NCBI GenBank assembly: GCA_016185395.1
Contig: JACPNR010000009.1
Span: 62,001-126,000, forward strand
Length of the DNA: 64,000 nt
Direction of reading: 5' to 3'
Source of the DNA: Candidatus Korobacter versatilis
GTDB taxonomy: Bacteria > Acidobacteriota > Terriglobia > Terriglobales > Acidobacteriaceae
Below, in pieces: positions 12,533-22,812 of the stretch. Position numbers and translations under genes: made by a program. The stretch's first letter is position 1, and the number at the start of each line of letters is the position of its first letter. A model generated the notes under the pieces. That model was given only the letters and a program-made list of their open reading frames with translations. It searched no databases and was not told the DNA's origin.

Positions 12533-12614
12533 TGAGCGCCCCGAGCAGTTTACTTTCGCTATTTATTCTCTTGCTACTTGACAGCTTTTCAAAACATGAA
12601 ATAATCCATTACTT

Positions 12615-13058
12615 ATGTATAGCAATGTGAAACAACTCCCCTTGGCTCAAGACTTTACCCCTCAACCGGGATTTCCAAAAGACTTAGCGGCCAAAGCCGC
12701 GCAACCACCACAAAACAAAAGACCGGCGCAGCCGGAGGGGAGGGGGGTAATCCCGGTTATTCCGCCACCGGTCCTAAGCCAGCCGTTCAGAAAGCCGCCG
12801 TTTATAAGAACGTGCAGCGGCACGAAAGCGGACGGCACCCGCTGCGGCTCCCCCGCCCTTCGCGGGAAATCCCACTGCTACTACCACGTCCCCGGACGTC
12901 AACGAACCAGCAGAAGGAAACGTGAGACTGTTTTACCCAACCTCCGCGATCCTCAACGGATGCTCGCCTGGGCCATGATGAACCTCGCCGTCGGCCGCAT
13001 CGACACCAAGGCCGCCGGCCAGCTCATCTACGCCGTCCAACAACACCTCTACCAATAG
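12615..13058 (+). CDS. Acidobacteria-type Cys/His mini-protein
   Basis: 147 residues. The centre has CSGTKADGTRCGSPALRGK followed by CYYHV, that is Cys-x8-Cys-x9-Cys-x2-His, a likely zinc site. It is followed by an Arg/Lys stretch (RQRTSRRKR) and a C-terminal helix with IDTKAAGQLIYAVQ. The N-terminal third is Pro/Gln-rich and low complexity. I recall many paralogous proteins with this Cys/His core and IDTKxAG tail in Acidobacteria, all of unknown function; the basic patch suggests nucleic acid binding. It is divergent from the nuclease operon. Confidence 0.65.
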   Translation: MYSNVKQLPLAQDFTPQPGFPKDLAAKAAQPPQNKRPAQPEGRGVIPVIPPPVLSQPFRKPPFIRTCSGTKADGTRCGSPALRGKSHCYYHVPGRQRTSRRKRETVLPNLRDPQRMLAWAMMNLAVGRIDTKAAGQLIYAVQQHLYQ

Positions 13059-17339: not shown

Positions 17340-17368
17340 TTGACACTGATTTTGAATGACTCTATACC
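17340..17368 (+). promoter_or_regulatory. Strong sigma-70-type promoter for the micro-ORF
   Basis: A perfect TTGACA at 17340-17345, a 17-base AT-rich spacer, and TATACC at 17363-17368. It lies 52 bases before the micro-ORF start. Confidence 0.75.
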
Positions 17369-17420
17369 TTCATCTAATCGCAATAGCAGCAACGTTGCGA
17401 CCAAAGGGAGAATAAAAACC

Positions 17421-17471
17421 ATGGCAGCTAAAAAGGGCAAGAAAAAGGCCGCGAAGAAGAAAAAGCACTAA
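17421..17471 (+). CDS. 16-residue lysine-rich micro-protein
   Basis: The ORF reads MAAKKGKKKAAKKKKH and then TAA: nine lysines in 16 residues, plus one Gly and four Ala. AAAGGGAG ends 10 bases upstream of the ATG. A strong promoter at 17340-17368 and a Rho-independent terminator at 17498-17527 bracket it, giving a self-contained unit of about 155 bases. Composition resembles tails of H1-like or ribosome- or DNA-binding proteins, so nucleic acid binding is a guess. Alternatively the unit is a small RNA and the ORF incidental, though the SD and start are well placed. Confidence 0.6.
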   Translation: MAAKKGKKKAAKKKKH

Positions 17472-17497
17472 GAGCGGCTTCACACCGCAACAGAAAC

Positions 17498-17527
17498 GGG
17501 GGACGCGAAAGCGTCCCCCAAAGTTTT
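17498..17527 (+). terminator. Rho-independent terminator
   Basis: A 9-bp stem GGGGGACGC with a GAAA tetraloop, then AAAG and a run of six T. It ends the micro-ORF unit and lies between it and the convergent rmuC gene. Confidence 0.9.
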
Positions 17528-17540
17528 TTACGGCGGAGTT

Positions 17541-18671
17541 CTACTCTCCGGCGCTGAGGGCGCGCTTCTTCTCCTCGAAGAGCGACTTCTGCGCGTCCGT
17601 TCCCGACAGGCTCTGCAACCGGTTCTCGAGTTTCCCCAACTCGCGCACGCTCAATTCGTAGTTGTTCACCGCGTTCTTCAAGTGGGTGCCGAGCTTGCCG
17701 AAGACGGCGTCGAATTCCTCCACTTCGAGTTTGAGCGACTGGATCTCCCGCAGGATGCTCTCCGCGCGCTGGCTCACGCGCATGCCGTTCATGCCCACGA
17801 TGATGGTCTGGAGATAGGCGTAGAGCGAGTTCGGCGAAACGGGAAACACGCGGCGCTGCACGCAGTAGTCGTAGAGGTCGTCGCCGTTCTCATCGCGGAT
17901 GATGGCCTCGTAATACACGTTCTCCGCCGGCACGTACATCAGCGCGAGCGGCAGCGTGCCTTCGGCCGGGCGGATGTATTTCCCGGCGATCTCGTCGATG
18001 CGCCTGCGCACGTCTTTGATGAACTCGCGGCGCATCGCCTTGCGCTCCGCGTCACTCGCAGCCGACGCCATGCGCCGGAAGTTCTCGAGCGAGAACTTGG
18101 AATCGATGACCACGCCGCCTTGCGGCAGATGCACCAGCGCGTCAGCGATGTCGCCGGACGAGAACCGGTACTGCACCTCGTATTGCTCGCGGGCGAAAAC
18201 TTGCGAGAGCAGGTTCTCGAGCTGCATCTCGCCCACGCCGCCGCGCAGCTTGGGCGCGCTGAAGATGCGCTCCAGGTCGCCCAGTCCCTTGGACACCTCG
18301 GCGATCTGGCGCGCCTGCTCGCTCATCTCGCCGACTTGCTTTTGCAGGCTGGCGAACGCCGTCTGCACGTTCGCCATGCGGTCGTTCACCGTCTTCGAGG
18401 TCTGCGACATCGCGCTGGCATTCGCGTCGAGCCGGTTCCCAACGTCGCTGCGGACGGCTTCGAGCGACGTCTGCACGTTGCTGGCGATGGCGCGGACCTG
18501 CTCGGCGATCAACTGGATGGACTTCGAGTTCGTCTCGCGCAGGATGTTCACGTCGTTGCGCAGCGCCTCGACCTCAGGCGCGGCGCCCGATGACTTACCG
18601 CGCAGCACGCTGACGACCGCGACGAGCACGGCCAGGGCAGCAACGACAGCGAGCACGATCTCGAGCGCCAT
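17541..18671 (-). CDS. rmuC: RmuC-family DNA recombination protein
   Basis: 376 residues. A single N-terminal membrane helix (IVLAVVAALAVLVAVVSVL) is followed by a coiled coil to about residue 135. Then comes the RmuC domain with a PD-(D/E)XK-like core (GDIADALVHLP...GGVVIDSKFSLENF). RmuC proteins limit inversions at short repeats in E. coli. It follows the large helicase-nuclease gene with no gap and is probably co-transcribed with it, which suits a shared DNA-repair role. Confidence 0.93.
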   Translation of the reverse strand: MALEIVLAVVAALAVLVAVVSVLRGKSSGAAPEVEALRNDVNILRETNSKSIQLIAEQVRAIASNVQTSLEAVRSDVGNRLDANASAMSQTSKTVNDRMANVQTAFASLQKQVGEMSEQARQIAEVSKGLGDLERIFSAPKLRGGVGEMQLENLLSQVFAREQYEVQYRFSSGDIADALVHLPQGGVVIDSKFSLENFRRMASAASDAERKAMRREFIKDVRRRIDEIAGKYIRPAEGTLPLALMYVPAENVYYEAIIRDENGDDLYDYCVQRRVFPVSPNSLYAYLQTIIVGMNGMRVSQRAESILREIQSLKLEVEEFDAVFGKLGTHLKNAVNNYELSVRELGKLENRLQSLSGTDAQKSLFEEKKRALSAGE

Positions 18672-21611
18672 CTAGTTCACCCCGCCGGCGGTTCCCCGCT
18701 TCTCGATGTTCACCAGACCCTCCTCAGAACTCTGTTCGATCGCCGGACACAGATCTTTATAGCCACACCACTTGCAATGGAAGCCGGGGTCGGCCTCGAA
18801 GTCACCGGCGCGGATGCGGCCGGCGACCTCGCGCACTTTTTCTTCGGTCCTGCGCAGCGCCGCTGGCGTGCGCTTGCTCGCCACGCCGGTGTTGGTCACC
18901 AGGTTATAAAGGACGAGGCGGTCAGGTTTCCACGCGGCGTCGATCTTGGGCGCGGCGAGCGCGTAGATGGAGAGCTGCAAGGATTCTTTCGCGTCCTTCT
19001 CGTCTTTGGCTTTGCCGGTCTTGTAGTCGACGATCTGGATGGCGCCGTCGGCGAGGCGGTCGATGCGGTCGATGCGTCCGGAGACGGTGATGCCTTCGAT
19101 CTCGACGCGGAAGGTCTGCTCGGTCGAGAGGACGGTGAATGTACCCGCGTCGGCGCGACGCGCGGCGAGGAAGTCGGCGAGCTGCTGCGCGCCCTCGCGC
19201 TCATAGAGCATGCGCTGCGTGGGGTCGTCGATCCTGGTAGTGGCCAGCTCGGCGCGGAACTGCGCGAGCATGGCGTCGTCGGACGGCGTGTTGCCGGCGA
19301 GGACCTGGTCGTAGTACTGCTTCAGCAGCGCGTGCATGATGCCGCCGTATTGCAGCGCGGCGGTCGGTTCTTCGGAGAGGCGCCAGTCGTACTTGATCTT
19401 GAACTTGAGCGGACAAGTCTCATAGCTCTCGATGGCCGACGCACTGAGCGCCATGGTGGCGAGTTCGGTGCGGGACGGCAGCATGAGCCAGGGCGCGACG
19501 GCGGAGACGCCCGGCAGCGCGGCAGCGGCAGCGGCGAGGTCGAGGGTGACGGCGCGGGGCGCGCGCTGCTCCCAGAGCGTGCTTGCGTCCTTCTGCTCCA
19601 ACATCTCACGCAGATACACGGTGGGGACGTTGCCGCTGCGCCAGTCTTTTTTTGCCATCAGCGTGAGCGAATCTTGCGCGCGCGTCATGGCGACGTAGAA
19701 GAGGCGGCGTTCCTCCTCGGCGTGCAAGTCCTTGGAGTCGCGGCCGGCGGCTGCGTCGCCGCGCAATTCGCGCGGGAACTCGAAGAGCACTTCCCGGTAA
19801 CTCATGGGGAATGAGCTTTGCGAGACGCGGACCACGTAGACGTGGCGGAACTCGCGTCCTTTGGCGGTGTGCGCGGTCATGAGGCGCACGGCATCGTCCT
19901 CATCCTCGGGCGGCAACGGGACGGTGCCGCCGAACTCGCGGAACATGTCGAGGTACTTGAGGAACGCCAACACGGTCCCGTCGCCGGCGATGGGCTTGCG
20001 CTCCCAGGCGGCGACGAATGCGACGAAGGTCTGCATGGCCTTCGATGCGCCGAAGGCGAAGCGTTTGCGGACCGCCTCGAGATAGGCGGCCGCCTTCGTC
20101 GCATGCGGCGGTGCGAGCTTATTCATCTCCGCGATGGCGGCGATGACCTTCTTTCCTGCCGGCGTCTCGCCCAGCACGGAGTAGAAAGCGGTGTCGCGCT
20201 TGCTGGCGGCGAGCTGCTCGCGCAGTTTCTGCGGCGCGAGTCCGAACTCGCGGAGCGCAGCGAAGCGCAGCAGCGGCGCGTTCTCGGATGGCGCGGTGAG
20301 GGCGCGCATGGCGGCGAGGACGTCGCGGACGTCGGAGACCTCGAGCGCGTCGAGCCCTTCGACCACGAACGGGATGGCGCGACGCCGGAGCTCGTCAACC
20401 AAATCCTCGCGATGGGAGGCCATGCGGTAGAGGACGCAGAAATCGGAGTAGGCAGCGCCGGCCCGCACGCTCTCCTCGATGTCGCTGGCGATGTGGAATG
20501 CTTCCTGTTCCCCGCCATCGTGGATGATGAGGCCGACGCGCGCGGGCGCGAGCGCTTCACCCTGGGCGCGCGCCTGCGCTTCGCGCGCCGACTGCAATCC
20601 CTCGCGCACGAGCGCGAGTTGCGGCGCGGCGGCGACCATCTGGTTCTTCTGGATGACGCGATAGGCGCTGCCGAGGATGGGCGAGAGCGAGCGGTAGTTC
20701 TCGGCGAGCGCGACGTGCTCGACCGTGGGGAAGGCGCGGCGGAAGCTCTCGAACGCGGCCGCGCTTGCGCCGCGGAAATGGTAGATGGCCTGGTCGGGAT
20801 CGCCGACGGCGAACACGTTCTGCTCGTCGCCGGCGAGCAGGCGCACCAGCTCGAGCAGCGCCTCGTTCGAATCCTGGAACTCGTCCACCAGGATGTAGCG
20901 GGCCTTGGCGCGCTCTTCCGCCAGCACCTCGGGACGCTCGCGCAGCAGCTCCACCGCGCCGGTGATCTGCATGCCGAAGGTGCCGAGGTTGTTGGCGGCG
21001 AGCATCGCCTCCACTTTGCCATAGACGGCGGCGATCTCCTGGCAGCGCGCGACGATCTCTTCGGGCGTGAGCGCGTCGTGGTCCTTGCTGGAGCTCACGC
21101 GCGGCAGCGGGGCGCGGCCGGCCTTCACGTCGTCCACATATTGCGAGTAGCGCGCGGCGGGGACCAGCTCATCGTGGCAACGGGAAAAGAAGTCGGTGAG
21201 GTTGTTGAGGAACTTTCCGGGATCGGCGGCGCGGCGAAAGATGTTCAGCGGCAGCTCGGGCAGGCGCTGCCGCAGGAAGACGCGCAGGTCGAAGTCGTCG
21301 AGCACCTGGAAATTGCGCTTGTGCTTGTCGAGCAGAGCAAACGCATAACTATGGAAATTGAGCGCCTGCAAGTCGCGGGCCTCGCCCTTGAGCTTCGCCT
21401 GCACGCGCCGGCGCAGCTCGTTCGCTGCCTCGATGGTGTAGGTGAGCGCGACGATCTCGCCGGGCTTCGCCAGCTTGCGCTGGACCAGGCGTGCTACGCG
21501 CTCGGTGAGCACGGTCGTCTTGCCCGTGCCGGCGCCGGCGACCACGAGCATGGGCCCGCGGGTGTGGTCGATGGCCGCTTTCTGCCGCGGATTGAAAACG
21601 CGCTCCGGCAC
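18672..21611 (-). CDS. UvrD/Rep-type helicase with C-terminal RecB-family nuclease
   Basis: 979 residues. Superfamily 1A motor: Walker A AGAGTGKTT near residue 27, Walker B VDEFQDSNE near 247, GDPDQAIYHFRGA, and the C-terminal motif TAHTAKGREF near 595. From about residue 720 is a RecB-type PD-(D/E)XK domain, with YETCPLKFK, GRIDRID, IVDYKTGKAK, and three closing cysteines (CKWCGYKDLC). The four cysteines fit the iron-sulfur staple seen in AddB-type nucleases. Probable role: end resection in double-strand break repair. No AddB or RecC partner is next to it, but rmuC follows directly. Confidence 0.92.
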   Translation of the reverse strand: MPERVFNPRQKAAIDHTRGPMLVVAGAGTGKTTVLTERVARLVQRKLAKPGEIVALTYTIEAANELRRRVQAKLKGEARDLQALNFHSYAFALLDKHKRNFQVLDDFDLRVFLRQRLPELPLNIFRRAADPGKFLNNLTDFFSRCHDELVPAARYSQYVDDVKAGRAPLPRVSSSKDHDALTPEEIVARCQEIAAVYGKVEAMLAANNLGTFGMQITGAVELLRERPEVLAEERAKARYILVDEFQDSNEALLELVRLLAGDEQNVFAVGDPDQAIYHFRGASAAAFESFRRAFPTVEHVALAENYRSLSPILGSAYRVIQKNQMVAAAPQLALVREGLQSAREAQARAQGEALAPARVGLIIHDGGEQEAFHIASDIEESVRAGAAYSDFCVLYRMASHREDLVDELRRRAIPFVVEGLDALEVSDVRDVLAAMRALTAPSENAPLLRFAALREFGLAPQKLREQLAASKRDTAFYSVLGETPAGKKVIAAIAEMNKLAPPHATKAAAYLEAVRKRFAFGASKAMQTFVAFVAAWERKPIAGDGTVLAFLKYLDMFREFGGTVPLPPEDEDDAVRLMTAHTAKGREFRHVYVVRVSQSSFPMSYREVLFEFPRELRGDAAAGRDSKDLHAEEERRLFYVAMTRAQDSLTLMAKKDWRSGNVPTVYLREMLEQKDASTLWEQRAPRAVTLDLAAAAAALPGVSAVAPWLMLPSRTELATMALSASAIESYETCPLKFKIKYDWRLSEEPTAALQYGGIMHALLKQYYDQVLAGNTPSDDAMLAQFRAELATTRIDDPTQRMLYEREGAQQLADFLAARRADAGTFTVLSTEQTFRVEIEGITVSGRIDRIDRLADGAIQIVDYKTGKAKDEKDAKESLQLSIYALAAPKIDAAWKPDRLVLYNLVTNTGVASKRTPAALRRTEEKVREVAGRIRAGDFEADPGFHCKWCGYKDLCPAIEQSSEEGLVNIEKRGTAGGVN

Positions 21612-21718
21612 GATGTACCCCAGAGCGAAGATTATGCGAAGCCGAGGGCAAGGGCAATGAGGAAATCAGCTTATTTTGTGGAAAATCGGGAAGTCAGCCG
21701 CCGCTGCGGGAGCGAGGA

Positions 21719-22420
21719 CTACGCTAGTTCGCTGGCGGCGATGGCCAAAGCCGCGATGGCCGCAGTCTCGGCGCGCAGGATGGTCGCCCCGAGGGACGCT
21801 GCCTGCCATCCATGCTGGAGGAAGAGCGCGAGTTCCTCTTCCCCCCATCCGCCTTCCGGACCGATGGCCAGCCGCACGGGACGAATGGATCTCGCCAGCG
21901 CCTGCTTGAGCGACGTCTGTTCTTCCGTCTCTGCGAGCACGATGCCGGCGGCGCCGTGGAGCGCAGCGTTGAGCTTCACCGGTTCGGCGACCTCCGGTGG
22001 CGCAATGCGCCGCGATTGCTGCGACGCCTCGTGCGCCAGCCTCCGCCAACGGTCGGAACGCTTGGCTGCCGATTGCGCCAGGTGCCTCTCCGTCCGCTGG
22101 GCGATGACCGGGACGATGCGCGCGACGCCCAACTCCGTGGCCTTCTCGATGGCCCACTCCATGCGGTCGAACTTGAAGACGGCAAGCAGCAACTCGACGG
22201 GCAACTGCTCCGCTGCGGGGAGTTCCTCGCCCAACTCGAACTCGACGCGCGCGTCGGAGACGGAGACGACTCTTCCCCGCCGCACGGTTTCGCCGGTTGA
22301 GATATCGAACTCCTGCCCGACCTTGGCGCGCAAGACGCGCGCCAGGTGCGCGGCGTTCTCGCCGGTGAGTGCGGCACGGTTGGCGTGAGTCTCGTCGGCG
22401 ATCCAGCGGCGGCGCGTCAT
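21719..22420 (-). CDS. rsmE: 16S rRNA m3U1498 methyltransferase, RsmE family
   Basis: 233 residues starting at ATG 22420 (MTRRRWIADE), which overlaps the preceding gene by 4 bases; the frame to 22654 runs through that gene and is not used. A PUA-like N-terminal domain precedes a SPOUT knot with the motifs EKATELGV, IGPEGGW and LGATILRAETA. It methylates N3 of a uridine in the small-subunit rRNA using S-adenosylmethionine. Confidence 0.93.
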   Translation of the reverse strand: MTRRRWIADETHANRAALTGENAAHLARVLRAKVGQEFDISTGETVRRGRVVSVSDARVEFELGEELPAAEQLPVELLLAVFKFDRMEWAIEKATELGVARIVPVIAQRTERHLAQSAAKRSDRWRRLAHEASQQSRRIAPPEVAEPVKLNAALHGAAGIVLAETEEQTSLKQALARSIRPVRLAIGPEGGWGEEELALFLQHGWQAASLGATILRAETAAIAALAIAASELA

Positions 22421-22812
22421 TTCACGTTCGGAAAGCGCAGCACCAGCCACCAGATGAGGATGGCGGCGAGCGCGTGGAATGCGCCGAAGATGCGGCTGAG
22501 GTAGGTGAGGCTGGCGCGGTCGGGATAGGCGGTATTCAAGAGCTGCTCGGCGCCATTGAGCACGCCGATGAGCGCGGCCACCCACATCCAGGCGGCGATG
22601 TGGCCGAAGAATCCGTAGACGAGGATGATGGGAGAGCCGACGACGATGGCCCATCCCCAGATGCGCTGCCGGTGCCGCTTGCGCTCGTCGCTCATCTTGT
22701 CGGCCATGACGGCGGCGAACTGCCCGGGCAGGCCGAGCCGCGCCAGGGCCGTGATGATGCTGATCACGAACAGGAACCAGACGTAGAAGCGACCGAGATC
22801 GAAGCTAGGCAA
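22417..22812 (-). CDS. Small membrane protein of unknown function
   Basis: 131 residues with about three to four hydrophobic helices (VWFLFVISIITALARL, WAIVVGSPIILVYGFFG, AAWMWVAALIGVL, LAAILIWWLVLRF). No family recognised. It overlaps dnaJ upstream by 8 bases and rsmE downstream by 4, so it is fixed in the hrcA-grpE-dnaJ-x-rsmE operon. Confidence 0.75.
   Translation of the reverse strand: MPSFDLGRFYVWFLFVISIITALARLGLPGQFAAVMADKMSDERKRHRQRIWGWAIVVGSPIILVYGFFGHIAAWMWVAALIGVLNGAEQLLNTAYPDRASLTYLSRIFGAFHALAAILIWWLVLRFPNVK

Follow-up and report, generated by a model that had tools for sequence, protein, structure and literature searches.

A lysine-rich micropeptide gene of Acidobacteriota whose transcript may double as a small RNA

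We analysed a stretch of 64,000 nt from Candidatus Korobacter versatilis (hereafter the window), in which a first-pass annotation had pointed to a compact unit of about 190 bases with a perfect -35 box, a 17-base spacer, a good -10 box, a Shine-Dalgarno (SD) sequence, a 16-codon ORF with nine lysines and a terminator. These elements are all present at 17340–17529 and conserved well beyond chance; the -10 box TATACC is there too, but agrees with TATAAT at four of six positions and is only moderate. A conserved 5'UTR hairpin (17378–17384/17394–17400) was absent from that annotation. In order, the unit comprises TTGACA-17-TATACC, GGGAG as SD-like element, ATG-16 codons-TAA and a strong terminator hairpin:

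17340–17368, plus strand: promoter, with -35 TTGACA (17340–17345), a 17-nt spacer and -10 TATACC (17363–17368)
17378–17400, plus strand: 5'UTR hairpin 1 from fold prediction, stem 17378–17384/17394–17400
17404–17414, plus strand: invariant AAGGGAGAATA, the SD region, with GGGAG (17406–17410) ten bases 5' of the start codon
17421–17471, plus strand: 16-codon ORF MAAKKGKKKAAKKKKH with nine Lys and stop TAA; in-frame length changes, third-position variation and AAA/AAG Lys codons among relatives
17498–17529, plus strand: intrinsic terminator GGGGGACGC-GAAA-GCGTCCCCC (stem 17498–17519), followed by AAAG and T6 (17524–17529)

The promoter sits within a conserved TTGAC...TGACTCTATAC block, and TTGACA-N17-TATAC occurs once in the window versus 0.01 times in shuffles. 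A second strong promoter-like site (TTGACA, 16 nt, AATAAT preceded by TG) was noted at 12578–12605 on the plus strand, upstream of the ORF at 12615–13058. The terminator stem begins 26 nt past the ORF stop and lies between the micropeptide unit and the convergent rmuC (end 17541); it scores as terminator-like on the minus strand too, and judging by this score 17498–17529 may also terminate rmuC. Positions 17541–22654 hold the convergent gene group that adjoins the unit: rmuC, a UvrD-like helicase with a PD-(D/E)XK nuclease domain, and rsmE.

Used as a DNA query, the 206-base unit gave a single match in its own genome, and 102 of the 150 family genomes had a match to the region by DNA similarity alone. 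A search of Acidobacteriota relatives, which the first-pass annotation had proposed, bore the unit out: a covariance model built from 60 sequences aligned over promoter, 5'UTR, ORF and terminator had matches in 164 of the 200 order genomes, covering 56 of 57 genera; for the class the figure was 71 of 151 and for the phylum 29 of 199, with overlap between the three samples and some units without the frame among the matches. Conservation in 102/150 and 164/200 genomes implies that the unit is not a chance pattern; a chance ORF is ruled out by this conservation and by the coding signature given below. In the order genomes the unit nearly always occurs once, at a single syntenic position: it comes after thiolase and a CPBP/Rce1-like protease and before UvrD-PDDEXK or rsmE. 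The gene that follows it runs convergently and is rmuC in the window and the UvrD-like helicase in most relatives; this helicase neighbour persists in only some families of the class. In g8, g66, g31, g44 and g64 rsmE is co-directional 3' of the unit, often just past the terminator (lower-case g numbers are code labels for genera, G numbers denote genomes and L numbers loci).

A pattern matched against 84,980 species genomes yielded 71 loci, all titled Acidobacteriota, with Terriglobia or Terriglobales/Acidobacteriales/Acidobacteriaceae as the finer titles among them. The scan preset parts of the promoter, the SD region and ATGGC; conservation of these parts was judged on the 30 similarity-fetched loci and is the same there. 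Promoter, SD region and terminator show the strongest conservation of the unit. TGACTCTATAC is nearly invariant in the 60-sequence alignment and also in the similarity-fetched loci L001–L030, AAGGGAGAATA is invariant across the 60 alignment rows (partly preset in the search pattern for L031–L101), and the terminator stem GGGGACGC..GCGTCCCC is nearly invariant among relatives. Farther covariance matches are K-rich mini-genes of the same build: their -35 is strong, a 5' hairpin is frequent, the SD consists of purines and the terminator closely follows the stop. Their peptides in other orders and classes include MAAKKKAKKKKR, MAKKAAKKAAKKGGKKR and MATKKPAKKAAKKPAAKKTSKKK. Lys/Ala-rich peptides are of low complexity and give no reliable alignment across classes, and distant homology is based on architecture and partly on synteny. 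Two phylum-level matches, L159 and L164, are ends of longer Lys-rich H1-like proteins and not micropeptides.

Comparison among relatives shows the hallmarks of a translated, lysine-rich frame whose amino acids are under selection. Every one of the 525 Lys codons in 63 non-redundant units is AAG (365) or AAA (160), and Asn codons are absent. In codons 4 and 5 and in the two Lys codons before the last residue, positions 1 and 2 are invariant and position 3 is variable in the same units, and variation is in general concentrated at third codon positions; such AAR-only Lys codons and third-position variation indicate that the frame is translated. Peptide length changes are all in frame, the stop always follows K-K-[HKR], and the peptide is retained where the 5'UTR differs, both in other orders or classes and as extra copies elsewhere in some genomes, which argues for selection on the peptide. 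Extra copies such as L230, L242, L243 and L187 (MATKKKAAKKAAKKKKH, MATKKKATKKAAKKKKR, MATKKKAAKKKKH) lie at other loci without the conserved 5'UTR. The earlier reading as a peptide gene therefore stands, with Lys codon and third-position data pointing to selection at the amino-acid level on a usually single-copy gene, and so does the expectation that gene callers miss it, the ORF being too short for the usual ones. Across relatives the peptides measure 11–32 aa and consist almost entirely of K, A, G, S, T, P, H and R; in the closer set they measure 13–30 aa with K, A, G, S, T, P, H and one V only. MAAKKGKKKAAKKKKH has 9 Lys among 16 residues and no hydrophobic, acidic or aromatic residue. Such a composition precludes autonomous folding and predicts binding to polyanions, with nucleic acid as the likely partner; composition is also what makes the binding of nucleic acid, ribosomes or acidic surfaces, as first suggested, plausible.

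The 5'UTR of relatives contains two small hairpins, the second just 5' of AAGGGAGAATAG. A GCAAC..GTTGC stem equivalent to hairpin 1 is kept with few compensatory changes, and the stem of hairpin 2 compensates between groups (TTCCAT/ATGGAA, TCGATT/AATCGA, TCGATC/GATCGA, TCGATG/CATCGA). The mean folding z-score of the 5'UTR in 63 sequences is a modest -1.6. In the window hairpin 1 is retained and hairpin 2 lost, and the 3'UTR holds no GGCAA.

In g31, g44, g64 and the g34 species G173 and G211 we found units that keep CTTGAC-17/18-TATAC, the 5' stems, GGGAG and the terminator and have lost the Lys frame. A second model built from frameless units detected the frameless RNA in all 8 g31/g64 genomes missed by the first (E 1e-16 to 4e-32). 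It gave a weak match or none in three g44 genomes, and no match in g34 genome G212. All g31 and g64 genomes examined contain such units, and by domain matches frameless units occupy the orthologous place, with thiolase and CPBP protease upstream and rsmE downstream. Most of them are missing a usable alternative start near GGGAG; in a few g31 RNAs an ATG 20–23 nt from GGGAG opens a different basic frame, which is not retained genus-wide. The RsmE tree gives at least two separate frame losses, one in g31+g64 and one in g44, which stands beside the frame-bearing g8 and g66; the frameless g34 species would add further losses. In our reading the g64 region may be ORF-derived (GGCAAATGGCAACCAAG to GGCAAACGCAACCAAG, start codon gone). 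The 55-nt frameless stretch that runs from GGGAG up to the terminator is 90% identical among nine g64 species, versus 63% in the 5'UTR, 28% and 25% in the flanks and 41% at rsmE four-fold sites, which argues against a decaying pseudogene in g64.

The pentamer GGCAA occurs 50 times in 22 frameless RNAs versus 3.2 expected from shuffles and 19 times in 3'UTRs of coding units versus 2.5 expected, both counts coming from related sequences and being indicative only. In the g31 frameless RNAs L184, L190, L272, L276 and L282 we noticed a small hairpin (GCGGT-GGCAAAG-GCCGC / ACCGC) that carries GGCAAAG in its loop, as though displayed for recognition. The gene hfq is encoded in 10 of 10 genomes checked. 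CsrA titration was also considered, since AGGGA fits ANGGA, but the g64 units lack the longer motif. Phage carriage was dismissed, the two IMG/VR pattern matches being unrelated proteins.

According to the first-pass annotation, relatives that keep promoter and terminator without the frame would speak for a small RNA instead of a peptide. Exactly this is seen in g31, g64, g44 and single g34 species, whereas 63 frame-bearing units are under coding selection; the frameless units mean that the unit is more than a peptide gene. Their conservation indicates an RNA-level role in the frameless relatives that selection has kept without the peptide. This role is seen in derived lineages only and may have originated after the loss of the peptide. 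A pattern search for another short copy replacing the peptide in frameless genomes gave longer Lys-rich proteins, of which L261 is a DUF6496 protein and the others share its C-terminal sequence. The DUF6496-type family also occurs in peptide-bearing g34 genomes and is thus no substitute for the lost peptide. These longer proteins (L246–L268, e.g. L261:1517–1843), present in frameless and frame-bearing genomes, combine a C-terminal domain (DUF6496 in L261) with micropeptide-like starts, and a common origin of the micropeptide and these Lys-rich tails is conceivable.

We favor, with a probability of roughly 55%, a transcript with two roles: it would be the small mRNA of a polycationic micropeptide, which probably binds nucleic acid, and at the same time a small RNA. 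A sigma-70-type promoter would give rise to a monocistronic transcript of about 155–160 nt, structured in its 5'UTR and ending at a strong terminator, and this transcript would be translated into the lysine-rich 16-residue peptide, presumably an unfolded polycation that binds RNA or DNA via its charge, like free-standing H1-tail segments. At least two lineages appear to have lost the frame while keeping the promoter, GGGAG, GGCAA-rich single-stranded segments and the terminator under strong selection, and a trans-acting RNA is probable there, working through base pairing of GGCAA (Hfq is encoded) or through the binding of a GGCAA-recognising protein. Since the peptide appears to be translated and the RNA is kept without the frame, a dual-function transcript is the simplest account; relatives that lost the peptide and kept the RNA suggest that both products are probably functional. 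In the window's own genome the main product is probably the peptide, because the 3'UTR is without GGCAA and hairpin 2 is missing. A broader formulation is tentative, and we give it slightly less than even odds: a widespread Acidobacteriota micropeptide gene (a free-standing H1-tail-like polycation of 11–32 residues) combined with a trans-acting small RNA with GGCAA recognition motifs, from which several lineages independently dropped the peptide so that the RNA alone remains.

If the transcript were a plain mRNA, the frameless relatives would be decaying remnants or locally rewired leaders. Such a peptide gene pure and simple agrees with the peptide being retained in other classes and in extra copies with different UTRs, and G173 and G211 of g34 do resemble recent decay. 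We nevertheless consider it unlikely, as all examined g31/g64 genomes carry frameless units conserved far above flanks and rsmE four-fold sites, and the RNA was kept in both of at least two independent losses. A non-coding small RNA, with the ORF as a by-product of A/G-rich RNA, would account for the RNA retained without the frame in g31, g44 and g64; it is very hard to reconcile with 63 units in which all 525 Lys codons are AAR and AAC and AAT are absent, or with third-position variation, length changes that respect the frame, K-K-[HKR] before the stop and a peptide retained with unrelated UTRs.

The unit could also be a cis-acting leader or attenuator of a downstream gene, the peptide then being a lysine-sensing leader peptide. 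The co-directional rsmE after the unit in g8, g66, g31, g44 and g64, with the unit directly upstream of it in g31, g44 and g64, is what such a leader would predict. This arrangement is limited to part of the family: in the window and most relatives the convergent rmuC or UvrD-like helicase leaves no downstream target to attenuate, and in the frameless G173 rsmE is missing from the surrounding 6 kb or so, which renders a leader improbable. Small size and high basicity would also suit a secreted cationic antimicrobial or signalling peptide. The peptide lacks a signal sequence and a hydrophobic face, genes for processing, export or immunity are absent beside it, and it keeps one chromosomal place across an order, unlike bacteriocin genes, so that we attach hardly any weight to secretion.

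Acidobacteriota are among the commonest soil bacteria, and the unit would give them an almost order-wide gene of 11–32 codons that escapes standard annotation. Several lineages have removed the frame naturally and kept the RNA, so the two proposed transcript functions could be examined separately in existing species. The peptide comes close to the smallest natural H1-like basic tail, offering a clean test of charge alone in a bacterial cell.

The 16-mer MAAKKGKKKAAKKKKH itself is too short to scan, and longer relatives were used for protein-family searches. No Pfam or NCBIfam family was found at cut-off for the micropeptides and no relevant match in PDB. Most micropeptides gave no match at all to HC2 (PF07382), NF038052 or NF038053; the longest relatives reached E 0.0014 and 0.056 for HC2 (best 19.2 bits versus a cut-off of 40) and 14–16 bits for NF038052/NF038053 versus cut-offs of 80–135, which places them outside these families. 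DUF6496 (PF20106) did not match the micropeptides, and the longer protein L261 scores E 5e-21. At gathering score the window matched nothing in Rfam 15, and seven relatives gave only chance miRNA/snoRNA-type matches at a permissive threshold. In the papers searched for small RNAs and Lys-rich small proteins of Acidobacteria, we found no description of this gene. A 2022 survey lists 4 annotated small RNAs in Acidobacteriota (PMC9029176), and the Acido-1 and Acido-Lenti-1 RNA motifs (RF01686, RF01687) are candidate small RNAs of Acidobacteria (PMC2864571).

The micropeptides share K, A, T, P repeats and a polycationic tail without folded core with bacterial histone H1-like proteins (Hc2/HctB PF07382, Burkholderia H1-like NF038053, AlgP), but measure 11–32 residues versus roughly 190–200 model positions and have their own 5'UTR and terminator. 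The DUF6496 proteins of the same genomes likewise have Lys-rich N-terminal tails (starting MATKKASKK...); in contrast to the domain-free micropeptides they carry a C-terminal domain, lie at other loci and have no common 5'UTR. SgrS/SgrT and SR1/SR1P are dual-function small RNAs, with which the unit has in common a short transcript, a small ORF, a separately conserved RNA segment, an intrinsic terminator and Hfq in the genome. VcdRP is a further dual-function small RNA (PMC8672173). As expected of this class, the short transcript carries an ORF that appears translated and under selection, and RNA conserved apart from the ORF is seen in the relatives, not in the window itself. Unlike in the known cases, target and base pairing are hypothetical here, the peptide is a K-rich polycation, and peptide and RNA functions separate naturally between lineages.
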